A stretch of DNA of 11,954 nt, from NCBI GenBank assembly GCA_002694245.1, contig NZLM01000066.1, forward strand, positions 25,341-37,294, given 5' to 3'. The position numbers and the translations under genes are program-made. This document shows, piece by piece, positions 2,170-11,584 of this stretch; the first letter of the stretch is position 1, and each line of letters starts with the position of its first letter. This DNA comes from Methanobacteriota archaeon (GTDB lineage Archaea > Thermoplasmatota > Poseidoniia > Poseidoniales > Poseidoniaceae). Under the pieces are notes generated by a model. That model was not told where the DNA came from, did no database searches, and saw only the letters and a program-made list of their open reading frames with translations.

Positions 2170-3711
2170 ATGGCACCAGCACAGAAGACAATTTTTGTAA
2201 TTGCTTCTCTGTTGTTGTTGTCAGTTCCAAATACGGTTGGCTATGAAACATCGAATTACAATAGCAATATACTCACTAGTCAAATGGAAAACGGATTGTG
2301 GATTAATGACACAATCAATATCAACGGGTCAACAACTCTAGACCCAACTTCAGTTGATTGGGTTTTGTATGACGTAACGGACCCTTATTCTGAGTGGGAA
2401 ATCTTGCGGGAGGGTCACTTCTTTACTTCTGTAACACCAGTTTCCGATGATTTGTGGACATGGGAATTGGAGATCGGTGTTGACCAAGTGAATTGTACAT
2501 GTTGGTTAGAAATTGGACAACCGAATGGCTTGTCAAAGGAATTTATGCATAGAATTATTTTCATAGGAGTCGGACCACATAACCCAGTCCTATCCCCTCT
2601 TCATGAAGCATCAGTTATTGTAGACCAACCGATTGATATCTCGGCAGTAGGAATATTGTCTAGTGGAGATATAATTGATTCTCAAATATTGGCTACATGG
2701 TGTTATGCTCCTCAAAACGCTTGCATTGGGAATTCGTCATCTGCCGAATTAGAAATTAGTTGGGACAACCAAACAGGTGAAAATGTAGCGAATATTGAGA
2801 TAGACCCTGAACTTTTCTCAATGACGGATGGAGCATGGAAATTTACTTACACTCTTCAAGGTCCTTCATTACTTCAATCACCTCCTATTCACCTCAGAGT
2901 GTATGTTGACAACACCGATCCCGTTGTTTCACTAATATGTCCAGAAGAAGCAATGGAGGGTGAACAAGTACTCGTTGATGGAAGCGGCTCTAGTGACGGT
3001 GTATGGGGTAACAATTTGCAGTCTATTTGGTATGTCACAGACCCATCAGGGTACACTTGGGTTGAATCTGGTGATGGCTCATCAGGATTGTTGCTGGACT
3101 TCGAACCGGATTTATCGGGTTACTACACTGTAAAACTTGACGTAATTGATACTGTGGGCAGAATGGCAAGTAATTCTGTGAATATATCTGTCAGTAACAT
3201 AGCTCCTCAAATACAACTTAGCATGGAAAACTCACTCATAATAAACCCAGATTCTTGGCAATTTACTGAGGGTGAGGAAATAAATCTGCACCCAAATATC
3301 ATAGAAACCGGGAGAGATGGAGAGGTCATAAACATAGAGTGGACTGTTAACGATGAATTCTTTTCATCAGACACAAACATTTCGATTTCAGATATCGGTA
3401 TTGGAATTCACACTGTAAAATTGGTTGTGACTGATGATGATGGAGATTTTGCTGAACATGAAATTGTCCTTACTGTTAATGCAAAAGCCGAATCAAATGC
3501 CCAAGACATAAATTATGCTGCAATACTAATACTAATTTTGGTTCTTGTAATTACTTTATTCAGCGTAAGAAACAAAACCGCATCAAAAGGTGAAATCAAT
3601 CAGGTTCCAAAATGGTCAAGTAAAACTCGAGCAGAAGAGAAGGATAAATCCGAAACAGAAAAAGAAAGCCTGTTGTGGGATGAAGAAGAATTTAGTGAAA
3701 GAAATGAATAG
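2170..3711 (+). CDS. Membrane-anchored surface protein with PKD-like domains
   Basis: This 513-residue protein has type I membrane topology. Residues 1-24 form a Sec signal peptide, with a hydrophobic core (FVIASLLLLSV) after a Lys. Residues 25-245 are beta-rich, with two nearby pairs of Cys (109/111 and 178/185). Residues about 247-343 and 345-437 look like two PKD/Ig-like domains: the first has VDGSGSSDG and YYTVKLDVIDTVG, the second HTVKLVVTDDDGDF. Residues about 449-466 form one transmembrane helix, followed by Arg/Lys and a charged tail of about 47 residues that should be cytoplasmic. Several N-x-S/T sequons (for example at Asn46, 52, 108, 188, 338 and 403) make N-glycosylation plausible. 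The start is supported by GAGGAG 6 bases upstream. It sits 3 bases after the calcium-repeat gene and 9 before pepP. PKD domains usually mediate protein or glycan contacts. No enzymatic motif is seen, so a receptor, scaffold or cell-wall role is only inference. Confidence 0.85.
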   Translation: MAPAQKTIFVIASLLLLSVPNTVGYETSNYNSNILTSQMENGLWINDTININGSTTLDPTSVDWVLYDVTDPYSEWEILREGHFFTSVTPVSDDLWTWELEIGVDQVNCTCWLEIGQPNGLSKEFMHRIIFIGVGPHNPVLSPLHEASVIVDQPIDISAVGILSSGDIIDSQILATWCYAPQNACIGNSSSAELEISWDNQTGENVANIEIDPELFSMTDGAWKFTYTLQGPSLLQSPPIHLRVYVDNTDPVVSLICPEEAMEGEQVLVDGSGSSDGVWGNNLQSIWYVTDPSGYTWVESGDGSSGLLLDFEPDLSGYYTVKLDVIDTVGRMASNSVNISVSNIAPQIQLSMENSLIINPDSWQFTEGEEINLHPNIIETGRDGEVINIEWTVNDEFFSSDTNISISDIGIGIHTVKLVVTDDDGDFAEHEIVLTVNAKAESNAQDINYAAILILILVLVITLFSVRNKTASKGEINQVPKWSSKTRAEEKDKSETEKESLLWDEEEFSERNE

Positions 3712-3720
3712 TTAGTCCTC

Positions 3721-5097
3721 ATGCAGAGTATCATGTGGGATAGCACATTACGGTCTATTGGCGACGAGCCTTCACCAATTGGGGAAGAGGAATACTACGC
3801 CAGACAAAGGAGATTATTTTCTCAACTTCGTCCAGGTGATTTACTGATTGTCACGGCGCCACATGAGTCTACTAGATCAAACGATGTTCATTATCCCTAT
3901 CGAACAAGCAGCGAAATGTTGTATCTTTGTGGTTGGGAGGACCCAGAGGCAGTGTTTGTTGCTTTTAATTCTGGAGAGGATTGGGTAACAAGTCTTTTTG
4001 TTCAACCAAAGGATGTATTGATGGAAATCTGGGAAGGAAGGAGACCTGGAGTTGATGGTGCCAAAAATGGATGGCCAGTTGATGAGGCCTATTCCCACAA
4101 AGAATTAGATGAGCGACTAGCTAGGATGTTAATTCAAAGTAAGCGTGTTTTTGTTAAGTTGGGAGTGGATTCTGATGTTGACAAACTCGTTGATTATGAG
4201 ATAAAATCAAACTCTCGTGAAAGGCAGAAATTAGGTATTGGACCTGTAAGCATTGTTGACCCTTCTCGTATGATTAATGAACTAAGGTTAAGGAAATCTG
4301 ATGCTGAAATAGCGCTGATGCGGCATTCTGCAAAAATTGCTAGCCAAGCACACATACAAGCCATGGCAAATACAAGACCTGGAGTTGGAGAGTGGCAGTT
4401 AGAAGGCATCATCGAGGGTGTTTTCAAGTATTGCAAAACCTCAGGAATTGCATACCCAAGCATAATTGGTAGTGGAGAAAACGCTACCATTCTTCATTAT
4501 ACTGTTAACAATGATACATGTAATGACGGAGAAGTAATACTCATCGATGCTGGTTGTGAGTACAAAGGTTATGCTTCAGATATAACTCGATCATGGCCTG
4601 TAAATGGTAAGTTTTCAGAGGCACAGGCTGAAATTTATGATATTGTATTGAAATCACAACTTGCAGCAATCGATGCATGTCGTGTCGGTAACCCATATGA
4701 TGCACCACACCAAGCAGCGAGAAGAGTTCTTGCTGAGGGACTAATTGATCTAGGAGTAATAACACAATCCTTGGATGAAGCGCTTGAGAGCAATGGTGAG
4801 CTAAACAAGTGGTACATGCACAATACTGGCCACTGGCTGGGTATTGATGTACACGATGTTGGCGTATACAGACCAGATGGAGAGCCAAGGTTATTCGAAG
4901 AAGGAATGGTGATTACAGTTGAGCCAGGTTTGTACTTTGGAGCATGGCGTCCAGATGTGGAATGCCCGGAAAGATATTCCAATATTGGAATAAGAATAGA
5001 GGATGACGTTTTGATAACTTCTAGTGGCCCTGATGTACTTTCTAGTGACTGTCCGAAAACAATTGCTAATATCGAAGCGATTGTTGGGTCTGCTTGA
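3721..5097 (+). CDS. pepP: Xaa-Pro aminopeptidase (aminopeptidase P, M24B family)
   Basis: This 458-residue enzyme should remove the N-terminal residue from peptides whose second residue is proline, using a dinuclear metal centre, probably Mn. No signal peptide is present, so it is cytosolic. The aminopeptidase P N-terminal domain covers about residues 20-170 and has the family phrase TRSNDVHYPYRTSSEMLYL. The pita-bread catalytic domain follows from about 190. All five expected metal ligands are present: Asp276 (LIDAG), Asp287 (SDITRSWP), His371 (GHWLGIDVHDVG), Glu401 (TVEPGLY) and Glu427 (GIRIEDD). His259 and His378 match the substrate-side histidines. Length and motifs closely follow bacterial PepP (Escherichia coli type) and not the shorter archaeal prolidases, which suggests an origin in bacteria. 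The start at 3721 has no clear ribosome site, and Met5 at 3733 is an alternative. It probably helps recycle proline-containing peptides taken up from degraded protein. Confidence 0.95.
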   Translation: MQSIMWDSTLRSIGDEPSPIGEEEYYARQRRLFSQLRPGDLLIVTAPHESTRSNDVHYPYRTSSEMLYLCGWEDPEAVFVAFNSGEDWVTSLFVQPKDVLMEIWEGRRPGVDGAKNGWPVDEAYSHKELDERLARMLIQSKRVFVKLGVDSDVDKLVDYEIKSNSRERQKLGIGPVSIVDPSRMINELRLRKSDAEIALMRHSAKIASQAHIQAMANTRPGVGEWQLEGIIEGVFKYCKTSGIAYPSIIGSGENATILHYTVNNDTCNDGEVILIDAGCEYKGYASDITRSWPVNGKFSEAQAEIYDIVLKSQLAAIDACRVGNPYDAPHQAARRVLAEGLIDLGVITQSLDEALESNGELNKWYMHNTGHWLGIDVHDVGVYRPDGEPRLFEEGMVITVEPGLYFGAWRPDVECPERYSNIGIRIEDDVLITSSGPDVLSSDCPKTIANIEAIVGSA

Positions 5098-5106
5098 GTG
5101 GACACT

Positions 5107-6273
5107 ATGTCTTGGAGTGAGATACTATCATCACACATGCAAGCAAACACTCGTTTGAGTCCCGAGGATGCTATCATTTTGTACAATGATGCACCTCTTC
5201 ACTCACTTCGTACCGCAGCAAATAAACGAAGAAAGCAAATTAATGGTAATCAAGAGGTTACCTATTTGATTGATAGGAATATCAATTATACAAATGTCTG
5301 CACTATCAACTGTCAGTTCTGTTCTTTTTACAGGCCCCCTGGACACGAAGAAACGTACACACAGACGGTTGAACAGATTAGCGCAAGGATCGACGAACTG
5401 GAAGAAATTGGTGGTGTGAGAATTCTAATGCAGGGTGGAGTAAATCCCGAATTAGGCATCGATTATTACACAGATCTAATCCACGAATTGAGAAATAGGC
5501 ACCCAACAATAGATTTGGACTGTTTCTCTCCGATAGAAATCGAGGGAATTGCTGATGTTACTGGTCTGACTACACTACAAGTGCTGGAGCATTTACAGAA
5601 GGCAGGAATGCATGGTTTGCCTGGAGGAGGTGCTGAAATGCTTGTTGACAATATAAGGAAAGATGTATCACCAAAAAAAGGGTCACCGGATAATTGGTTG
5701 AGAGTGATGTCCGAGGCCCAATCTTTGGGTATGACAACTAGCGCAACCAACGTTTTCGGTTTTGGAGAGTCAAATGCAGACCGAGTAGAACACATGCGTA
5801 GAATAAGAGATTTGCAGGATGAAAGTATTGCAAAGTTTGGAAACGGATTCACATCATTTATCGCTTGGCCAGTTCAACTTGAGAACAATACATACGGAAA
5901 GAGAAATCGAGGTAGAAATAGATTCGAACTGGGTGCAGGACCAAGTGAATATTTACGTCATGTAGCGATATCAAGACTATTCTTTGATAATATTGAGCAC
6001 ATACAAGCATCATGGCCAACGATGGGTCTCTCTGTAGCTCAAATGGCATTGCTTGGTGGTGCAGATGATGCAGGCTCAACAATGATGGAGGAAAACGTTG
6101 TTTCAGCATCCGGAACCGAGAAGATGTCGGCTAGCGAAAATGAGTTACAAGATGCAATAGTTCGTGCAGGTTTTGTTCCTAGAAGAAGAAACTCAAGGTA
6201 TGAATTACTTGATACACCAGAACCAAACACAAAACTAGAGAGACTCGTTGCTCCACCACCAGCTCAATTTTGA
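5107..6273 (+). CDS. mqnC: Cyclic dehypoxanthinyl futalosine synthase (radical SAM, MqnC)
   Basis: MqnC cyclises dehypoxanthine futalosine in the futalosine route to menaquinone. It uses a 4Fe-4S cluster and S-adenosylmethionine, in the cytosol. The radical SAM cluster motif CTINCQFC (CxxxCxxC) follows the family phrase RNINYTNV, and FYRPPG comes directly after it. Further family landmarks are ILMQGGVNPEL, LPGGGAEMLVD, SPKK, NIQASWPTMG (here HIQASW) and GSTMMEENVV near the C-terminus. The FYRP and GSTMMEENVV phrases favour MqnC over the related CofH, CofG and MqnE. The length (388 residues) is normal, with a slightly longer Arg- and Pro-rich tail. ATG 5107 is preferred, with GAGTGG 5 bases before it. 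A GTG at 5098 directly abutting the pepP stop would add three residues. No other mqn gene is in the window. Its 3' end overlaps the convergent lipoprotein gene by 10 bases. Confidence 0.9.
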   Translation: MSWSEILSSHMQANTRLSPEDAIILYNDAPLHSLRTAANKRRKQINGNQEVTYLIDRNINYTNVCTINCQFCSFYRPPGHEETYTQTVEQISARIDELEEIGGVRILMQGGVNPELGIDYYTDLIHELRNRHPTIDLDCFSPIEIEGIADVTGLTTLQVLEHLQKAGMHGLPGGGAEMLVDNIRKDVSPKKGSPDNWLRVMSEAQSLGMTTSATNVFGFGESNADRVEHMRRIRDLQDESIAKFGNGFTSFIAWPVQLENNTYGKRNRGRNRFELGAGPSEYLRHVAISRLFFDNIEHIQASWPTMGLSVAQMALLGGADDAGSTMMEENVVSASGTEKMSASENELQDAIVRAGFVPRRRNSRYELLDTPEPNTKLERLVAPPPAQF

Positions 6274-9254
6274 GCATACCAAACTAACCAGATATTGGCC
6301 CTGATTTCTCTGCCTCCACCATTCGTATCTTGTGGGACATATTCTTGGCCATTGTACAAGCCTCTGTATCTGAGGTTATTTTCGCTGGAATTATCTACCC
6401 AGTCAGTGATATCATAAGTCCACTGCTTTACATCTTGACCAGCACACCAACCTGCTCTACCGTATGGCCATGAACCAAATTGATTTGCAACAACTCCCCG
6501 ATCTACTTCTTTTTCGCACCCTTGATTGTCGTATACGATTGGATGCCATTCATATGCGGTATTTCCATTGAGGTAGTAGTGATGCTCATGGTCACAAAAT
6601 TCTGCACAGTTTGCTTGGTCTTGATTAAACCCATGACCTGTAATAGTTGCCACAATTTTGAGTTTGTAATAATCGCTGAGCGTTGTGAAGTTATGTTGGC
6701 GCTTGTATTGAGACTCGTTATTGTAATCCCCTCTGAACTGTCCACCAGTGAATACTTGTTCTCCACTGAAACTTCTCTCTCCAATATTCCAATTAGAGAA
6801 TAATAATTTTACAGTAAGAGTACCTTTGTTGGCACCTTGATATTTGAAAGTCCTAACATCACTCTCTTCTAACATGAACATGTATGGTGTGATATCGGTT
6901 AACCAGCGTCCTTCCCTACCGTAAGTCGTTATCCAGCGCATAAATTCTGTGCCACACTTGCTGGAGTTATCTCTGTCACAGATTTTCATGTAAGCTAGGT
7001 AATCCCACTCATGGCATCCTCCGTAACTACCATCTTGCTTAGCATAGCGATTTCTTCTCTCTTCGCATGCATGCTCATGGAACACTTCCATTGTATCATA
7101 TGATGATATGTTGTTGGGTAGAGAGATACTGACATTACTGTATGTAGATGTATAACCTCCACCCCATCCACCACTATGCCATGTTTCATCCACGATTGTC
7201 ACAGTATGGATACTTGGGTCTGTTTCCCTGATTTCAGTCTTGAATTCGTAATTATACATTCGAGCCTCATATGCCCAATGTGTAATGTCATTAGATTGTG
7301 TAGTCCATGCGTATATTGAACCAATTTCTCTTGCCCTTTGGAACCTGTCTATACCGTAGTATAGGGAATTCCAGTTATTGATCAAATCTCCAAGACCTCC
7401 ACTTGTAGCAGACATATCCTGGTCGATGTAATGTATTCGATCTTTCCATTTTAGTTCCTCATCTGGATTAAGAGCATTTTCTACAGCCGCCTTTCTACCC
7501 ATGACGTCATTGTAGTATGAATTGTCAAATGAACCATAAAATAGGTGGGCATTATCTGGTAATTGTCTAATCATTGAGCCTGGATTTTTACTCCAATCAG
7601 CATTGTTTCCATTCCCAGATGTATCTGTGTATTTGAATAAAAATATGTAAACATCTTCGCCATTCCACTCGTTTCTAAATGACCAGGTGCCATCAGTTGT
7701 AGGTAGTGAGAAGTGTGCAACAGTATCCATTCGGTCATTACCGTGGCCAGTTTCTTTCCAATTTACAGGCATCTGGTATACTGCACAACCAAACTCATCA
7801 GGTGTCCATTTGGATTCTGTGTTCGGACAATTATCCACATTAGAGAACACACCATCTCCGTCTAAGTCTGCACAACCTACAGAATTAACTGCATTTCCTA
7901 ATGGTGTTCCTGGACAAGCATCATCAGAGTCCATGACGCCGTCAGCATCAGTATCTCTCTCTGTTGAATCACATCCATGCTCATCAACATCTTGTGCGTT
8001 AAGAGGAGTTCTGGGGCACTGGTCGAGAATTACTCCAGTTTCATTAACATCATTAACGCCATCAGAATCATCATCCTCGTCTTCCATTGCATCTTGACAA
8101 CCATCTCCATCATAGTCAAACTCAGAGTTGCTAATCCAATTAGAAAAACCTCTCCAACAAGAGTCAACAGTGTCATTCACCATATCGTTATCATCGTCAG
8201 AATCTTCATCTAAATCACGACATCCGTCGCCGTCCCAATCTGTGTAAGGTTTTGATTCCCAACCAATATTTCCTTTGGGGCATGAATCTAAGAAGTCTAC
8301 GATTCCATCATTATCGTCATCATCTTCCAAAGCATCAGAGCATCCGTCCCTATCATAATCGTTATACTCATCACTGACCCAACCTATCTCCGAATCGCAG
8401 TAATCGTCGATATCAGGAATCATATCATTATCATCATCAAGGTCCTCTTCGAAATCGTGACATCCGTCACCATCTCTATCAGTTGCAGGATTTGGGTTCC
8501 AACCATCTGATTCACCGTAGCCGTTTGGACACGAATCGGCTTCATCTGGTATTCCATCTCCATCCATGTCGTCTCCTGCAAGCAAAATTATCCTGACCAT
8601 CCTTGTGTCAGTAGTTTTAGTCCAGATACCACACTCAGCTTGTATGCTAACACTGTATGACTCCTCGACTACTCCTTGATTTAATGTGAAATCTCCATTC
8701 TCGTCAGCTGTTTGCGTGCTACTACCATCCGAGATTGTACAAGTTTCCGGTGAGGAATGTAATACTGTCCCAGTAATCTTAATTGGCATTGATTGTTCTA
8801 ATTCTATGATTGCTTCAGTAGAGATTATCGTTTCGCCCTCATCAGGCGATTGAACCAAAAACTCTACTTGTTTGATTATTGGATCTTCAATTCCTTCTAC
8901 TATTAACCGAACAGCAGCGGTCCAATCTCCTGGTTCATCTGGCATAAAGACTAGTGAAATAGCGTCTTCTGAGTAAGTAAGAGTACTTTCAATGTCTCTT
9001 ATGCCGCTAGGGGAGAACAATTCATATTCGAAACTAAAATCTACAGTTATGGGTTGAATGTAATATTGGCCAGAGATAAAGAAAATTTCTCCCACTTTTG
9101 CTGGGAGTGGTGATTGGTCTAATTCAAATTCGACATTTTCTACAGCGAGAATTTCTTCTGTAGTTACCTCTTCAACCACTTCCTCTGCACCGATGCAACC
9201 AGAAAGTAGCATAATCAAAGTTAGAATAACGGCGGATATGGCCCTGCCTTCCAT
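6264..9254 (-). CDS. Lipoprotein with TSP3 stalk and C-terminal PNGase F-like domain
   Basis: This 996-residue protein is predicted to be secreted and lipid-anchored: a hydrophobic helix ends in the lipobox LSGC (Cys20), followed by an acidic linker. Residues about 38-225 are beta-sandwich-like. Residues 228-491 form an Asp-rich TSP3 calcium stalk. Residues about 497-680 form an unassigned globular domain that starts HFSLPTTDGTW, like a redoxin edge but without CxxC. Residues about 681-996 resemble peptide:N-glycosidase F, which cleaves N-glycans from Asn as a glycosylamine. CHEWDY (Asp751) corresponds to CDEWD with catalytic Asp60, NCAEFC (Glu885) to GCAEWC with Glu206, GRAGWC (Arg933) to DRAGWC with Arg248, and SNW (Trp822) to TETW with Trp120. 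The cysteines forming the three PNGase F disulfides also have counterparts: 730/747, 883/887 and 913/937. The Glu118 position appears to be Ser820, so activity is uncertain. It may instead bind glycans. The ATG at 9254 gives a standard signal peptide and has no clear ribosome site. Confidence 0.85.
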   Translation of the reverse strand: MEGRAISAVILTLIMLLSGCIGAEEVVEEVTTEEILAVENVEFELDQSPLPAKVGEIFFISGQYYIQPITVDFSFEYELFSPSGIRDIESTLTYSEDAISLVFMPDEPGDWTAAVRLIVEGIEDPIIKQVEFLVQSPDEGETIISTEAIIELEQSMPIKITGTVLHSSPETCTISDGSSTQTADENGDFTLNQGVVEESYSVSIQAECGIWTKTTDTRMVRIILLAGDDMDGDGIPDEADSCPNGYGESDGWNPNPATDRDGDGCHDFEEDLDDDNDMIPDIDDYCDSEIGWVSDEYNDYDRDGCSDALEDDDDNDGIVDFLDSCPKGNIGWESKPYTDWDGDGCRDLDEDSDDDNDMVNDTVDSCWRGFSNWISNSEFDYDGDGCQDAMEDEDDDSDGVNDVNETGVILDQCPRTPLNAQDVDEHGCDSTERDTDADGVMDSDDACPGTPLGNAVNSVGCADLDGDGVFSNVDNCPNTESKWTPDEFGCAVYQMPVNWKETGHGNDRMDTVAHFSLPTTDGTWSFRNEWNGEDVYIFLFKYTDTSGNGNNADWSKNPGSMIRQLPDNAHLFYGSFDNSYYNDVMGRKAAVENALNPDEELKWKDRIHYIDQDMSATSGGLGDLINNWNSLYYGIDRFQRAREIGSIYAWTTQSNDITHWAYEARMYNYEFKTEIRETDPSIHTVTIVDETWHSGGWGGGYTSTYSNVSISLPNNISSYDTMEVFHEHACEERRNRYAKQDGSYGGCHEWDYLAYMKICDRDNSSKCGTEFMRWITTYGREGRWLTDITPYMFMLEESDVRTFKYQGANKGTLTVKLLFSNWNIGERSFSGEQVFTGGQFRGDYNNESQYKRQHNFTTLSDYYKLKIVATITGHGFNQDQANCAEFCDHEHHYYLNGNTAYEWHPIVYDNQGCEKEVDRGVVANQFGSWPYGRAGWCAGQDVKQWTYDITDWVDNSSENNLRYRGLYNGQEYVPQDTNGGGREIRANIWLVWYAQN
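7782..8573 (-). repeat. TSP3 stalk with regular ~40-residue Cys repeat
   Basis: Within the lipoprotein, residues 228-491 are Asp-rich calcium repeats. The first part is strikingly regular: the DGDGC or DRDGC cysteines fall at residues 265, 305, 345 and 386, a period of 40-41 residues (about 120 bases). Each unit also has a second cysteine (residues 242, 286, 325 and 366), a GW or NW pair and a run of 4-6 acidic residues (DDDNDM). From about residue 410 the array turns into the more usual DACPGTP / DNCPNTE type of TSP3 repeat. The alternating cysteines suggest one disulfide per unit, giving a rigid spacer between membrane and enzyme domain. Confidence 0.8.
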
Positions 9255-9269
9255 GGTGTTGGACTATAT

Positions 9270-9296
9270 GGCAAGCAAATGAATCCTTTGCTTACC
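9270..9296 (-). other. Inverted repeat / RNA hairpin between membrane-protein and lipoprotein genes
   Basis: Read on the minus strand, GGTAAGCAAA pairs with TTTGCTTGCC across a 7-base loop (GGATTCA). This gives a 10-pair stem in which the third pair is U-G. The stem contains the TAA stop of the upstream membrane-protein gene (9292-9294) and ends 15 bases before the lipoprotein ATG. There is no following T run, so it is not a classical terminator. A processing signal, an mRNA stabiliser or a control on translation of the lipoprotein would fit its place. Confidence 0.5.
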
Positions 9297-10371
9297 GTGT
9301 GTCATTTTCTGTGCGACCATCAGAAATGAATATTTTATCTGTAATTGTAGCCTCTTTGTTGTGTTCAATAGTTAGAGGTTCTACCCAAAGTAGATCCCCT
9401 CCTTTTTTCCTTTCAATCGATGCAATTAATTCCCAGTGAACCCTAACAAGGTCTCCGTAGAGTGTTCCGGGCCAATCACCATCAGGTGTTTCAATTTCGA
9501 ACTCACCTCCGCCTAAATCAATAGAGACGGATTTGCTCGAGCTCATAATTCGCATTGGTCTGAGAAAAACTCCTCCCGGCACATCGTGTCTTTGCATTGG
9601 TGCGTCTTCACCCATACCGGTTCCATCGTCAAGGCCTTTTTCCCAATGATGAGGTAATGGCGTGGTTAGTCCGGGAGGTGGTTGCCCGTTCGGATCTTTA
9701 CCAAGCGCTTGAAACACCTTGTGACGTGCAGGGGGTAATATGCCAACTCGGCAATATAGTTTCAACGCTGTCCACTCATCAAGTAATTTTGGAAATTCTA
9801 TTTTGCCTTTCAGATTATCCCCACTTCGTGTTTTCATTATTGTAACATTTGGATTTGGAGGTGCGTTAGCTAGGAATGCTTTTTGCCTTCTCAAGTCTCC
9901 AAGATTTGCTGCAACCCTAAGCACTATCGGGGTTATCATAAGGGGCACAACTATCACAGCAAGTATGGGGTAATCTAGTAACCCTAGTCTGATTTTTCCT
10001 GTACCAAATGTCGGTAGGCCGATTGATGATTGTATTGGCGTTGTAAATAAATAAAACAAACAGAATAATAAAATTACGACAACGTAATTTATGAAATTTC
10101 TAGCTTTTGCATGTATTGGATGTGGAAGAAGATACCATCCTGTACGCTGCTTTTCAATAATCTGCGGCGTCTCACCATGATACTCAGTATCAACCTCATA
10201 ATCTCCATCAATTACTCTCTCGACAAGCCACGTATTTTCATTGCCTAATCTAAAGGGTGGGATAACTGGCCCGTCTATTTCGAATTGGTTTTCAACAACA
10301 GGTAACTTTCTGGGCGTAAGATTCGATGGGTCGAAAGGAGGATACCTCACTCGATGAGTAATCTTAACCAT
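9292..10371 (-). CDS. Two-helix membrane protein of unknown function
   Basis: I do not recognise this 359-residue protein. Residues about 1-88 are soluble, Pro-rich and acidic. Two transmembrane helices follow at about 93-113 (INYVVVILLFCLFYLF) and 134-154 (YPILAVIVVPLMITPIVL), separated by a short loop. About 205 soluble residues follow. The tail includes a Gly/Pro-rich low-complexity stretch (PNGQPPPGL, GTGMGEDAP) and ends in a beta-rich segment. There, FEIETPDGDWPGTLYGDLV followed by RVHWELIASI is reminiscent of arrestin/Spo0M-type beta-sandwiches (weak, by eye). Both large soluble parts would lie on the same side, probably cytoplasmic given Arg/Lys next to the helices. ATG 10371 is preferred because it avoids overlap. 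A TTG at 10389 would overlap the reductase gene by 8 bases and add six residues. It sits 10 bases after the reductase gene and 37 before the lipoprotein gene. Confidence 0.8.
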   Translation of the reverse strand: MVKITHRVRYPPFDPSNLTPRKLPVVENQFEIDGPVIPPFRLGNENTWLVERVIDGDYEVDTEYHGETPQIIEKQRTGWYLLPHPIHAKARNFINYVVVILLFCLFYLFTTPIQSSIGLPTFGTGKIRLGLLDYPILAVIVVPLMITPIVLRVAANLGDLRRQKAFLANAPPNPNVTIMKTRSGDNLKGKIEFPKLLDEWTALKLYCRVGILPPARHKVFQALGKDPNGQPPPGLTTPLPHHWEKGLDDGTGMGEDAPMQRHDVPGGVFLRPMRIMSSSKSVSIDLGGGEFEIETPDGDWPGTLYGDLVRVHWELIASIERKKGGDLLWVEPLTIEHNKEATITDKIFISDGRTENDTR

Positions 10372-10381
10372 TTTAATCAGC

Positions 10382-11584
10382 CTATGCAAAAATAAGTTTG
10401 AAACCTGCCTTGATAGCCAACTTCCTGAATTCAGGAACTTTTCGCAACAATGTCATTCCAAGTGGAACAGGATGTTCGATATCCCCAACCGAGTTTATTA
10501 AATCTAAAATTTCAGGGCGATTGAACATCTCGAAATGCGAGTCTAGTTCATCATCATCTGGAATGGTAACCAACAAATCACGTAATGCTCTAGCTCGGTC
10601 TTGTTCTTTCCTAAATGCTTTGAACGGTTTACAGATCTTTTCAAGATCGGAAGAACTCAATTTATCTTTTATGATGGCTACTGACAATTTATCGATAATT
10701 GCTTCAATCTGTCTAAAACCAGGACCTATCCCACCTCCAGTAGTAGGTTTTGCCATGCCTGCAGCATCACCTATTACCATAACTCTGTCTTTGAACGGTT
10801 TTCTTATTGTTCCACAAGGAACTGGGCCACAATATCTGGCAATTTCATTCATGCCTGCAAATCTTTTCTTCCACAAGTCATGAGAAATCAATGATTCATA
10901 GCATTCCTCTACACTTCTTCCATCCAGATCCTGTGGCCTTGCCCACATTCCAACGCGATGTGTGTTGTTCCCCGTTGGAATCACCCATGCGAAAAACCCG
11001 GGTGCAAAATCCTTACCAGTATACATTTCAAGCCAATTGTCTTTGCCTGTTAGTCCAGAAACATCTGCTTGGAATCCAATCATCATTTCTTTTGGCTTAC
11101 CCATTCTAAAGTGGCGTCTAGTCCATGAATGCGCACCATCAGCACCAACTAGCAATCCACATGTTAAATCGATAATTTCTCCTTCACGCTCAACTTTGAC
11201 AATAACACCATCAGTAGTTACAGATGCATCAATTGGCTTCGATTTGAGCCACAGGTGCGCCCCGGCATCCATTGCCTGTGCTACAACACCTTGATCGAAT
11301 CTTTTCCTGCATACTACGTGAGTCCTAACCCTGCCATCCTTGCCAACAGGCAGCATAATTCCGGATGGCGAGTGCATTAATGCACCATCAACACTCTGAA
11401 GAATCGTGTCATGGAGATTAACCATGTTCATCGCAGGTGGGTTTACTAGGCCAGCACATTGAAACGGTCTTCCGATTTCTGCATGCTCCTCAAGCATAAG
11501 AGTGGAAATGCCCCGTGATGCTAATTCAGTTGCAAGTCGTCCCCCAACAGGACCTGCCCCGACTATGACAACTTGGTACATCAT
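10382..11584 (-). CDS. Geranylgeranyl reductase family FAD-dependent oxidoreductase
   Basis: This 400-residue flavoprotein belongs to the family that saturates double bonds of geranylgeranyl chains: archaeal di-O-geranylgeranylglycerophospholipid reductases, and relatives acting on quinone or pigment side chains. The N-terminal Rossmann motif is VIVGAGPVGGRLA (GxGxxG at residues 9-14), followed by LEEH, whose acidic residue fits adenosine ribose binding. FQCAGLV carries the conserved active-site-region Cys43. LLVGADGAHSWTRR (about 144-157) is the family's second FAD motif. GFFAWVIP with a downstream Gly matches the archaeal YxWxFP substrate motif with Phe for Tyr. GDAAGMAKPTTGGGI (272-286) binds the FAD ribityl-phosphate. 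Length is normal. The start is MM at 11584/11581, with no clear ribosome site. It lies 40 bases after the topoisomerase stop. A role in membrane-lipid saturation is likely, but the sequence alone does not exclude a menaquinone side chain as substrate. Confidence 0.9.
   Translation of the reverse strand: MMYQVVIVGAGPVGGRLATELASRGISTLMLEEHAEIGRPFQCAGLVNPPAMNMVNLHDTILQSVDGALMHSPSGIMLPVGKDGRVRTHVVCRKRFDQGVVAQAMDAGAHLWLKSKPIDASVTTDGVIVKVEREGEIIDLTCGLLVGADGAHSWTRRHFRMGKPKEMMIGFQADVSGLTGKDNWLEMYTGKDFAPGFFAWVIPTGNNTHRVGMWARPQDLDGRSVEECYESLISHDLWKKRFAGMNEIARYCGPVPCGTIRKPFKDRVMVIGDAAGMAKPTTGGGIGPGFRQIEAIIDKLSVAIIKDKLSSSDLEKICKPFKAFRKEQDRARALRDLLVTIPDDDELDSHFEMFNRPEILDLINSVGDIEHPVPLGMTLLRKVPEFRKLAIKAGFKLIFA

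Follow-up and report, generated by a model that had tools for sequence, protein, structure and literature searches.

Peptide:N-glycanases of the PNGase F type (PNGases) are widespread in bacteria, and no archaeal PNGase is named in the available portion of a paper on their double jelly roll (PMC8812541). PNGase F of Elizabethkingia (PDB 1pgs, 1pnf, 1png and 3pms) has neither a thioredoxin-like (Tx-like) domain nor a stalk, and a module joining a Tx-like domain to the PNGase domain has been described for the acid PNGase Ngly2 of zebrafish (PDB 9lwg) and for its orthologues in certain bacteria and further animals (PMC12753239). In Ngly2, the Tx-like domain is devoid of a CxxC motif, a protease-associated insert is thought to restrict access, and Asp421 and Glu555 are essential (PMC12753239). 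Work on PNGaseL and its relatives gives the active-site pattern of the superfamily as aromatic-Asp-positive/aromatic together with a His and a Glu, from which PNGase F deviates at the His (PMC12381499). Here we analyze a stretch of 11,954 nucleotides (the window) from contig C66 of a Poseidoniales (Marine Group II) archaeon, whose assembly comprises 1.98 Mb and is 84% complete. One gene of the window, encoding 996 amino acids, most probably (at roughly 0.78) specifies a membrane-anchored, surface-exposed PNGase of the PNGase F superfamily, for which activity is predicted and Ngly2 provides the closest known architecture.

Family, fold and conserved residues

The initial annotation, which was made from the letters alone, had proposed that this gene encodes a PNGase F-like domain on an archaeal surface lipoprotein. 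This interpretation is supported by the C-domain profile, the predicted fold and the invariant residues, and the archaeal origin by named Poseidoniales relatives. The likeness of motifs is not due to chance, given that Pfam N-glycanase_C (PF09113) matches residues 844-982 with 71.9 bits (cut-off 25), the residues encoded by 6264-7214 alone find Ngly2 by phmmer with an E value of 3.9e-40, and a profile of the family finds 1pgs with an E value of 1.2e-22. As the annotation had anticipated, a double jelly roll is predicted, and its two consecutive domains superpose on solved PNGases. Together with the Asp and Glu pair and the six cysteines of the three-disulfide pattern, this places the protein in the PNGase F superfamily, as judged from sequence and predicted model. 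A viral origin was considered on grounds of fold and rejected, since the capsid double jelly rolls recovered by Foldseek had E values of ~6e-05 or weaker and ranked a long way behind the PNGases. NCBIfam returned only TSP3-type matches far below the cut-off, and PHROGs gave no match for the protein.

The motifs CHEWDY, NCAEFC and GRAGWC lie where they had been reported and align in order with CDEWD (D60), GCAEWC (E206) and DRAGWC (R248) of 1pgs, the distance from the Asp to the Glu being 134 residues here versus 146 in PNGase F, and that from the Glu to the Arg 48 versus 42. All six disulfide cysteines have counterparts, as had also been claimed: 730/747, 883/887 and 913/937, predicted to form disulfides, correspond to 51/56, 204/208 and 231/252 of PNGase F. 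What did not stand was the pairing of SNW with TETW, because TETW (117-120) falls beside residues ~805-807 and SNW (820-822) lies opposite GTP. In an alignment of 111 rows (22 from Poseidoniales and 89 others), the six cysteines, Trp750, Asp751, Glu885, Arg933, His874, Tyr778, Arg780 and Asp787 are identical in all 111. When the set was composed of 125 domains including Ngly2 and PNGase F, Trp750, Asp751, Glu885 and Arg933 were found in 125/125, and His874, Tyr778, Arg780 and Asp787 in 124/125 each. Among the 120 matches listed, one of which is the protein itself, CHEWD is present in 120, NCAEFC in 120 and GRAGWC in 119.

With an offset of 25 in the Ngly2 chain, which reconciles our alignment with the numbering of PMC12753239, His546 of Ngly2 is retained as His874 and His422 is replaced by Tyr752. 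Two PNGase F residues, Arg61 and Trp191, are both replaced in the window protein. The protein shows the aromatic-Asp-positive/aromatic, His and Glu pattern, as do PNGaseL and its relatives (PMC12381499), to which it is likened by active-site pattern only.

Upstream of this domain the protein is built as listed in Table 1, and the span proposed initially, 6264-7214, is too short, as the module begins near residue 491 (window 7784). The N-terminus combines a signal peptide with a lipobox Cys, as expected of an archaeal lipoprotein, which predicts lipidation; the lipobox pattern falls within the N-terminal 45 residues in 114 of the 119 full-length relatives (own protein included) compared with 6% of shuffled N-termini. 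Foldseek matches of the Ig type span ~200 columns and were assigned to the two beta-sandwiches without printed query ranges. Mean identity to the window protein over 57 relatives rises from 21% and 35% in the beta-sandwiches to 64% in the TSP3 stalk, whose repeated Asp/Cys pattern is invariant across alignment A3, 65% in the Tx-like domain, and 70% and 75% in the N and C domains of the PNGase. The AF2 model of the full-length protein, built from archaeal rows alone, is weaker in the active-site loops (mean pLDDT 77.9), and the catalytic half was read from a deep-alignment AF2 model instead.

Table 1. Features of the PNGase gene and its product, with positions in the window
Feature	Residues	Position	Strand	Basis
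Whole open reading frame, ATG start; stalked lipoprotein with C-terminal Tx-like and PNGase F-type module	1-996	6264..9254	-	full-length relatives, synteny
Predicted signal peptide and lipobox LSGC (17-20, Cys20)	1-20	9195..9254	-	lipobox pattern
N-terminal beta-sandwich 1, fast evolving	38-138	8841..9143	-	AF2 full-length model, Ig-type Foldseek matches, mean identity
N-terminal beta-sandwich 2	139-224	8583..8840	-	AF2 full-length model, Foldseek, identity
TSP3 repeat stalk, Asp-rich, Ca-binding type	225-490	7785..8582	-	PF02412, E 5e-07
Tx-like domain without cysteine	491-656	7287..7784	-	
Linker helix	657-681	7212..7286	-	AF2 helix 659-678
PNGase F-type double jelly roll	682-996	6267..7211	-	
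CHEWDY with Trp750 and putative catalytic Asp751 (Asp60 of PNGase F, Asp421 of Ngly2)	747-752	6999..7016	-	
His874 (His546 of Ngly2, Trp191 of PNGase F)	874	6633..6635	-	alignment, PMC12753239
NCAEFC with putative catalytic Glu885 (Glu206 of PNGase F, Glu555 of Ngly2)	882-887	6594..6611	-	
GRAGWC with Arg933 (Arg248 of PNGase F)	932-937	6444..6461	-	

The Tx-like domain contains no cysteine at all and thus, like its Ngly2 counterpart, no CxxC motif ahead of the PNGase domain. From the start of the Tx-like domain to that of the PNGase domain there are ~175 residues here versus ~311 in Ngly2 (PMC12753239), a gap close to the 133 residues of the protease-associated domain, indicating that this insert is missing, and in the predicted model residues 491-681 leave no room for it, being taken up by Tx-like strands, a loop and the linker helix. 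For this reason the protein is considered related to Ngly2 and not an Ngly2 orthologue. The two also differ in location, Ngly2 being lysosomal and the archaeal protein being predicted to be tethered by its lipobox and TSP3 stalk. Relatives from Myxococcota or Deltaproteobacteria (for example P0146, P0195 and L070), where the label 'bacterial' relies on source names that cover part of the rows, carry the Tx-like and PNGase domains over nearly all of residues 491-996 at ~30% identity, with the same invariant residues. Those listed have 500-740 amino acids and no long stalk, in a search that admitted only ~280-890 amino acids. On the proteobacterial contig L070, the PNGase gene is closely followed by the end of a TSP3-type protein (7006-7290), which is encoded on the opposite strand.

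Distribution, locus and origin of the gene

PF09113 matches were detected in 98 of the 193 sampled genomes of the order, 80/96 in the family of the window (f1) and 18/97 in its sister family (f2), the latter all in genera g14, g16, g18 and g21; f1 genomes average well under full completeness and some misses may be gaps. The tree neighbours P0141 and L084 suggest that f1 is Poseidoniaceae and f2 Thalassarchaeaceae, with locus L004 not fitting. Of 389 genomes sampled across the phylum, 78 had a match, all inside the class and including four of a third family (f3), and no match was found in 14 control genomes, four of them archaea, other archaeal phyla lying outside the sample. The f2 genomes with the gene, mostly of 1.6-2.1 Mb (one of 1.3), exceed in size most of those without it, which are mostly of 1.1-1.6 Mb, a few reaching 1.7-1.8.

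According to Pfam, the window also encodes an M24 peptidase, a CofH/MqnC-like radical SAM protein (CofH), a protein of the FAD-binding/geranylgeranyl-reductase kind (GGR) and the end of a topoisomerase, besides h365 (9292-10389), a membrane-type protein of 365 amino acids with no Pfam match up to E 1. The search for relatives yielded 75 loci, of which L001-L069 are archaeal with a whole or partial PNGase gene, L070 is the proteobacterium, and L071-L075 match the stalk region only. Among the L001-L069 loci with enough sequence, a convergent CofH gene follows the PNGase gene within 1.5 kb in 60 of 61, and the PNGase gene is immediately preceded by h365 in 53 of 53. The locus is fixed apart from L020, in which the 1.8 kb after the PNGase gene (2264-4048) match no window gene, L080 (f1), in which the M24 gene follows directly (1980-2075) and there is no CofH, L082, and L084 (f2), which lacks h365 beside the PNGase gene and has GGR next to it on the upstream side. 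CofH directly adjoins the PNGase gene in the f2 loci L083-L085, and neighbours differ in the f3 loci.

Thirteen genomes lacking the PNGase gene were examined, ten of which have h365 and CofH on one contig, and in nine of these the locus is closed, the two matches being less than 175 bases apart. In genome G027 the gap amounts to 868 bases and holds a stretch (L088 2124-2519) that resembles residues 156-281 and weakly 6-41, in a comparison made with the low-complexity filter off and a score inflated by the Asp-rich part; as this genome has no PNGase-domain match, the stretch is probably a decayed copy of the gene. From these closed or variable loci it follows that the gene is gained and lost singly, at one site. 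Recent mobile cargo was rejected on account of the fixed locus.

In a tree of 85 rows, made by a quick method with SH-aLRT support only, the 31 Poseidoniales rows form one branch (100), whose sister group (96) comprises 11 rows, namely the two from f3 and nine others, one named Myxococcota (P0146), and both sets together form one branch (99). Because this branch nests among rows partly named Myxococcota or Deltaproteobacteria, the tree suggests that the gene entered the Poseidoniales from bacteria, the f3 copies representing either a second entry or copies separated by transfer. PNGase F and Ngly2 are long branches of unsure placement.

Elsewhere in the window, a long TSP3-type protein runs off the edge, positions 1-2166 covering one end of it (721 amino acids or more). 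Its best segment is 62-93% identical and in the same place in the Poseidoniales loci where it was found, and it is followed by a PKD-type membrane protein of 513 amino acids (2170-3711). In L082 (G007, f2) there are three extra open reading frames between the PNGase gene and CofH (3994-7854), one of which presumably resembles the start of a glycerol-3-phosphate dehydrogenase. A scan for promoters and terminators gave 8 promoter-like sites, compared with 9.4 in shuffled sequences.

Proposed activity and its alternatives

We propose that the exported protein would be lipidated at Cys20, as its lipobox predicts, and that the two beta-sandwiches and the calcium-binding TSP3 stalk would keep the catalytic module off the cell, with the cysteine-free Tx-like domain playing a structural part and perhaps mediating dimerisation, as it does in Ngly2. 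The Asn-GlcNAc amide bond of N-glycoproteins would be hydrolysed by Asp751 and Glu885, and as no protease-associated domain lies over the cleft, folded or bulky substrates may be accepted. With His874 but no histidine at position 752, the pH optimum is predicted to be closer to neutral than that of Ngly2. The likeliest use would be to strip N-glycans off eukaryotic (algal or detrital) glycoproteins, which could then be cut by the secreted peptidases of the archaeon, a consumer of protein; extracellular peptidases and proteolysis are reported in genome papers on Marine Group II (PMC6336850, PMC6461757, PMC6864105). GH92 and GH20 matched in none of 21 genomes (13 f1 and 8 f2) and in 3 and 4, respectively, of 14 controls, which fits glycan removal to free protein rather than sugar use, these being the only families tried.

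Several observations weigh against this proposal. Both domain families of PNGase F had been expected to match, and while PF09113 is significant, the N-domain profile PF09112 has no match on the protein up to E 1. PF09112 scores 84.1 bits on Ngly2 and 26.5 bits on PNGase F, is over its cut-off in none of five other archaeal or bacterial relatives tried, and found nothing in a scan of the genome, in which the controls gave no match either; the predicted structure nonetheless has the N jelly roll, and the phmmer match to Ngly2, which starts at residue 706, extends over it as well. P0112 is the sole exception among the 120 matches that carries no GRAGWC. Glu118 of PNGase F, whose Gln mutant is less than 0.1% active (PMC9102325), aligns with the variable Gln806 in a loop of different length, this position in the active Ngly2 being Lys or Thr, depending on the alignment. 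The aromatic platform for the second GlcNAc (Trp120 of PNGase F; Trp480) has no certain counterpart, the candidate being Tyr805, with Y, F or W in 109/125 rows. Some hexosaminidases and mannosidases belong to families other than GH20 and GH92. A glycan operon was rejected, since the neighbours are of the M24, CofH-like, GGR and topoisomerase kinds and CofH and h365 stay adjacent where the PNGase gene is missing. Finally, the host has an AglB-type protein, and its own glycoproteins may serve as substrates.

It is conceivable, though unlikely, that the substrates are the archaeon's own secreted proteins or N-glycosylated surface layer, in turnover, recycling or remodelling of AglB-made glycans, given that the enzyme is tethered to the same cell as these glycans and that the genome encodes an STT3/AglB-type protein with WWDYG. 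However, STT3/AglB matches occur in 184/193 genomes of the order (f1 95/96, f2 89/97) with or without PNGase, which makes such a role less likely: 79/97 f2 genomes have no PNGase gene match and 89/97 have AglB, and nine of the ten genomes that lack the PNGase gene and have the two flanks on a single contig show a closed locus. Moreover, the PNGase F-type enzymes known so far recognise a GlcNAc-GlcNAc core, and such a core is missing from many archaeal glycans. Between foreign and own glycans, a choice that the initial annotation had posed, the distribution data lean towards foreign ones. The STT3/AglB match of this genome (G000:C21:60925-61827, L077) is in an open frame of 3206 amino acids with SWWDYGFQ, and in many listed genomes of the order this frame has ~3,100-3,270 amino acids, far more than the ~850-1000 of a usual AglB.

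That the double jelly roll merely holds N-glycans on particles, as an adhesin or pseudo-enzyme that does not cut, seems quite improbable, even if the stalk and beta-sandwiches are adhesin-like, the counterparts of Glu118 and Trp120 are unclear, and a role in adhesion has been suggested for thrombospondin-type genes of the order (PMC6461757). It is hard to see how binding by itself would preserve the acid pair, along with Arg933 and Trp750, this strictly across all 125 domains. Of the enzyme and the mere binder, both named by the annotation, the former has the better support, since the two residues that Ngly2 and PNGase F have been shown to need are invariant. Least likely is another enzyme of the double jelly-roll clan, such as a PHM-type copper monooxygenase or an amidase on another glycosylated amide.

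Novelty and meaning for Marine Group II

Marine Group II is described as outnumbering all other planktonic archaea in the surface ocean and as having no cultured representatives (PMC6461757). The terms 'PNGase', 'glycosidase' and 'N-glyc' are absent from the main texts of three genome papers (PMC6336850, PMC6461757, PMC6864105), archaea are not mentioned in the main texts on Ngly2 (PMC12753239) and PNGaseL (PMC12381499), and a search of open-licence papers, judged from listings, found none on an archaeal enzyme of the PNGase F type. The family label is already known, as NCBI names 5 of the 120 listed relatives 'peptide-N-glycosidase F-related protein', contrary to the initial expectation that such proteins would usually be annotated only as TSP3 repeat proteins. 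New are the tethered architecture and the domain of life, the latter not found in the literature search, with a catalytic plan that appears unchanged at the sequence level.

We regard it as an even bet that Marine Group II, with a gene probably acquired from bacteria, made the Tx-like and PNGase module into a stalked surface tool for removing eukaryotic N-glycans in seawater, which would be, according to our searches, the first working N-glycanase of the superfamily in Archaea and a trait dividing a family that keeps it (80/96) from one that mostly lacks it (18/97). As the module is common to archaea and animals, either it is older than the lysosomal role that it has in fish, or it has been transferred from one domain of life to another. 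If the proposal is true, archaeal peptidases depend on one enzyme for part of the algal glycoprotein that reaches them, and a surface N-glycanase would be a concrete, testable step in the access of Marine Group II to glycosylated algal protein, as well as a genetic difference between two of its families.
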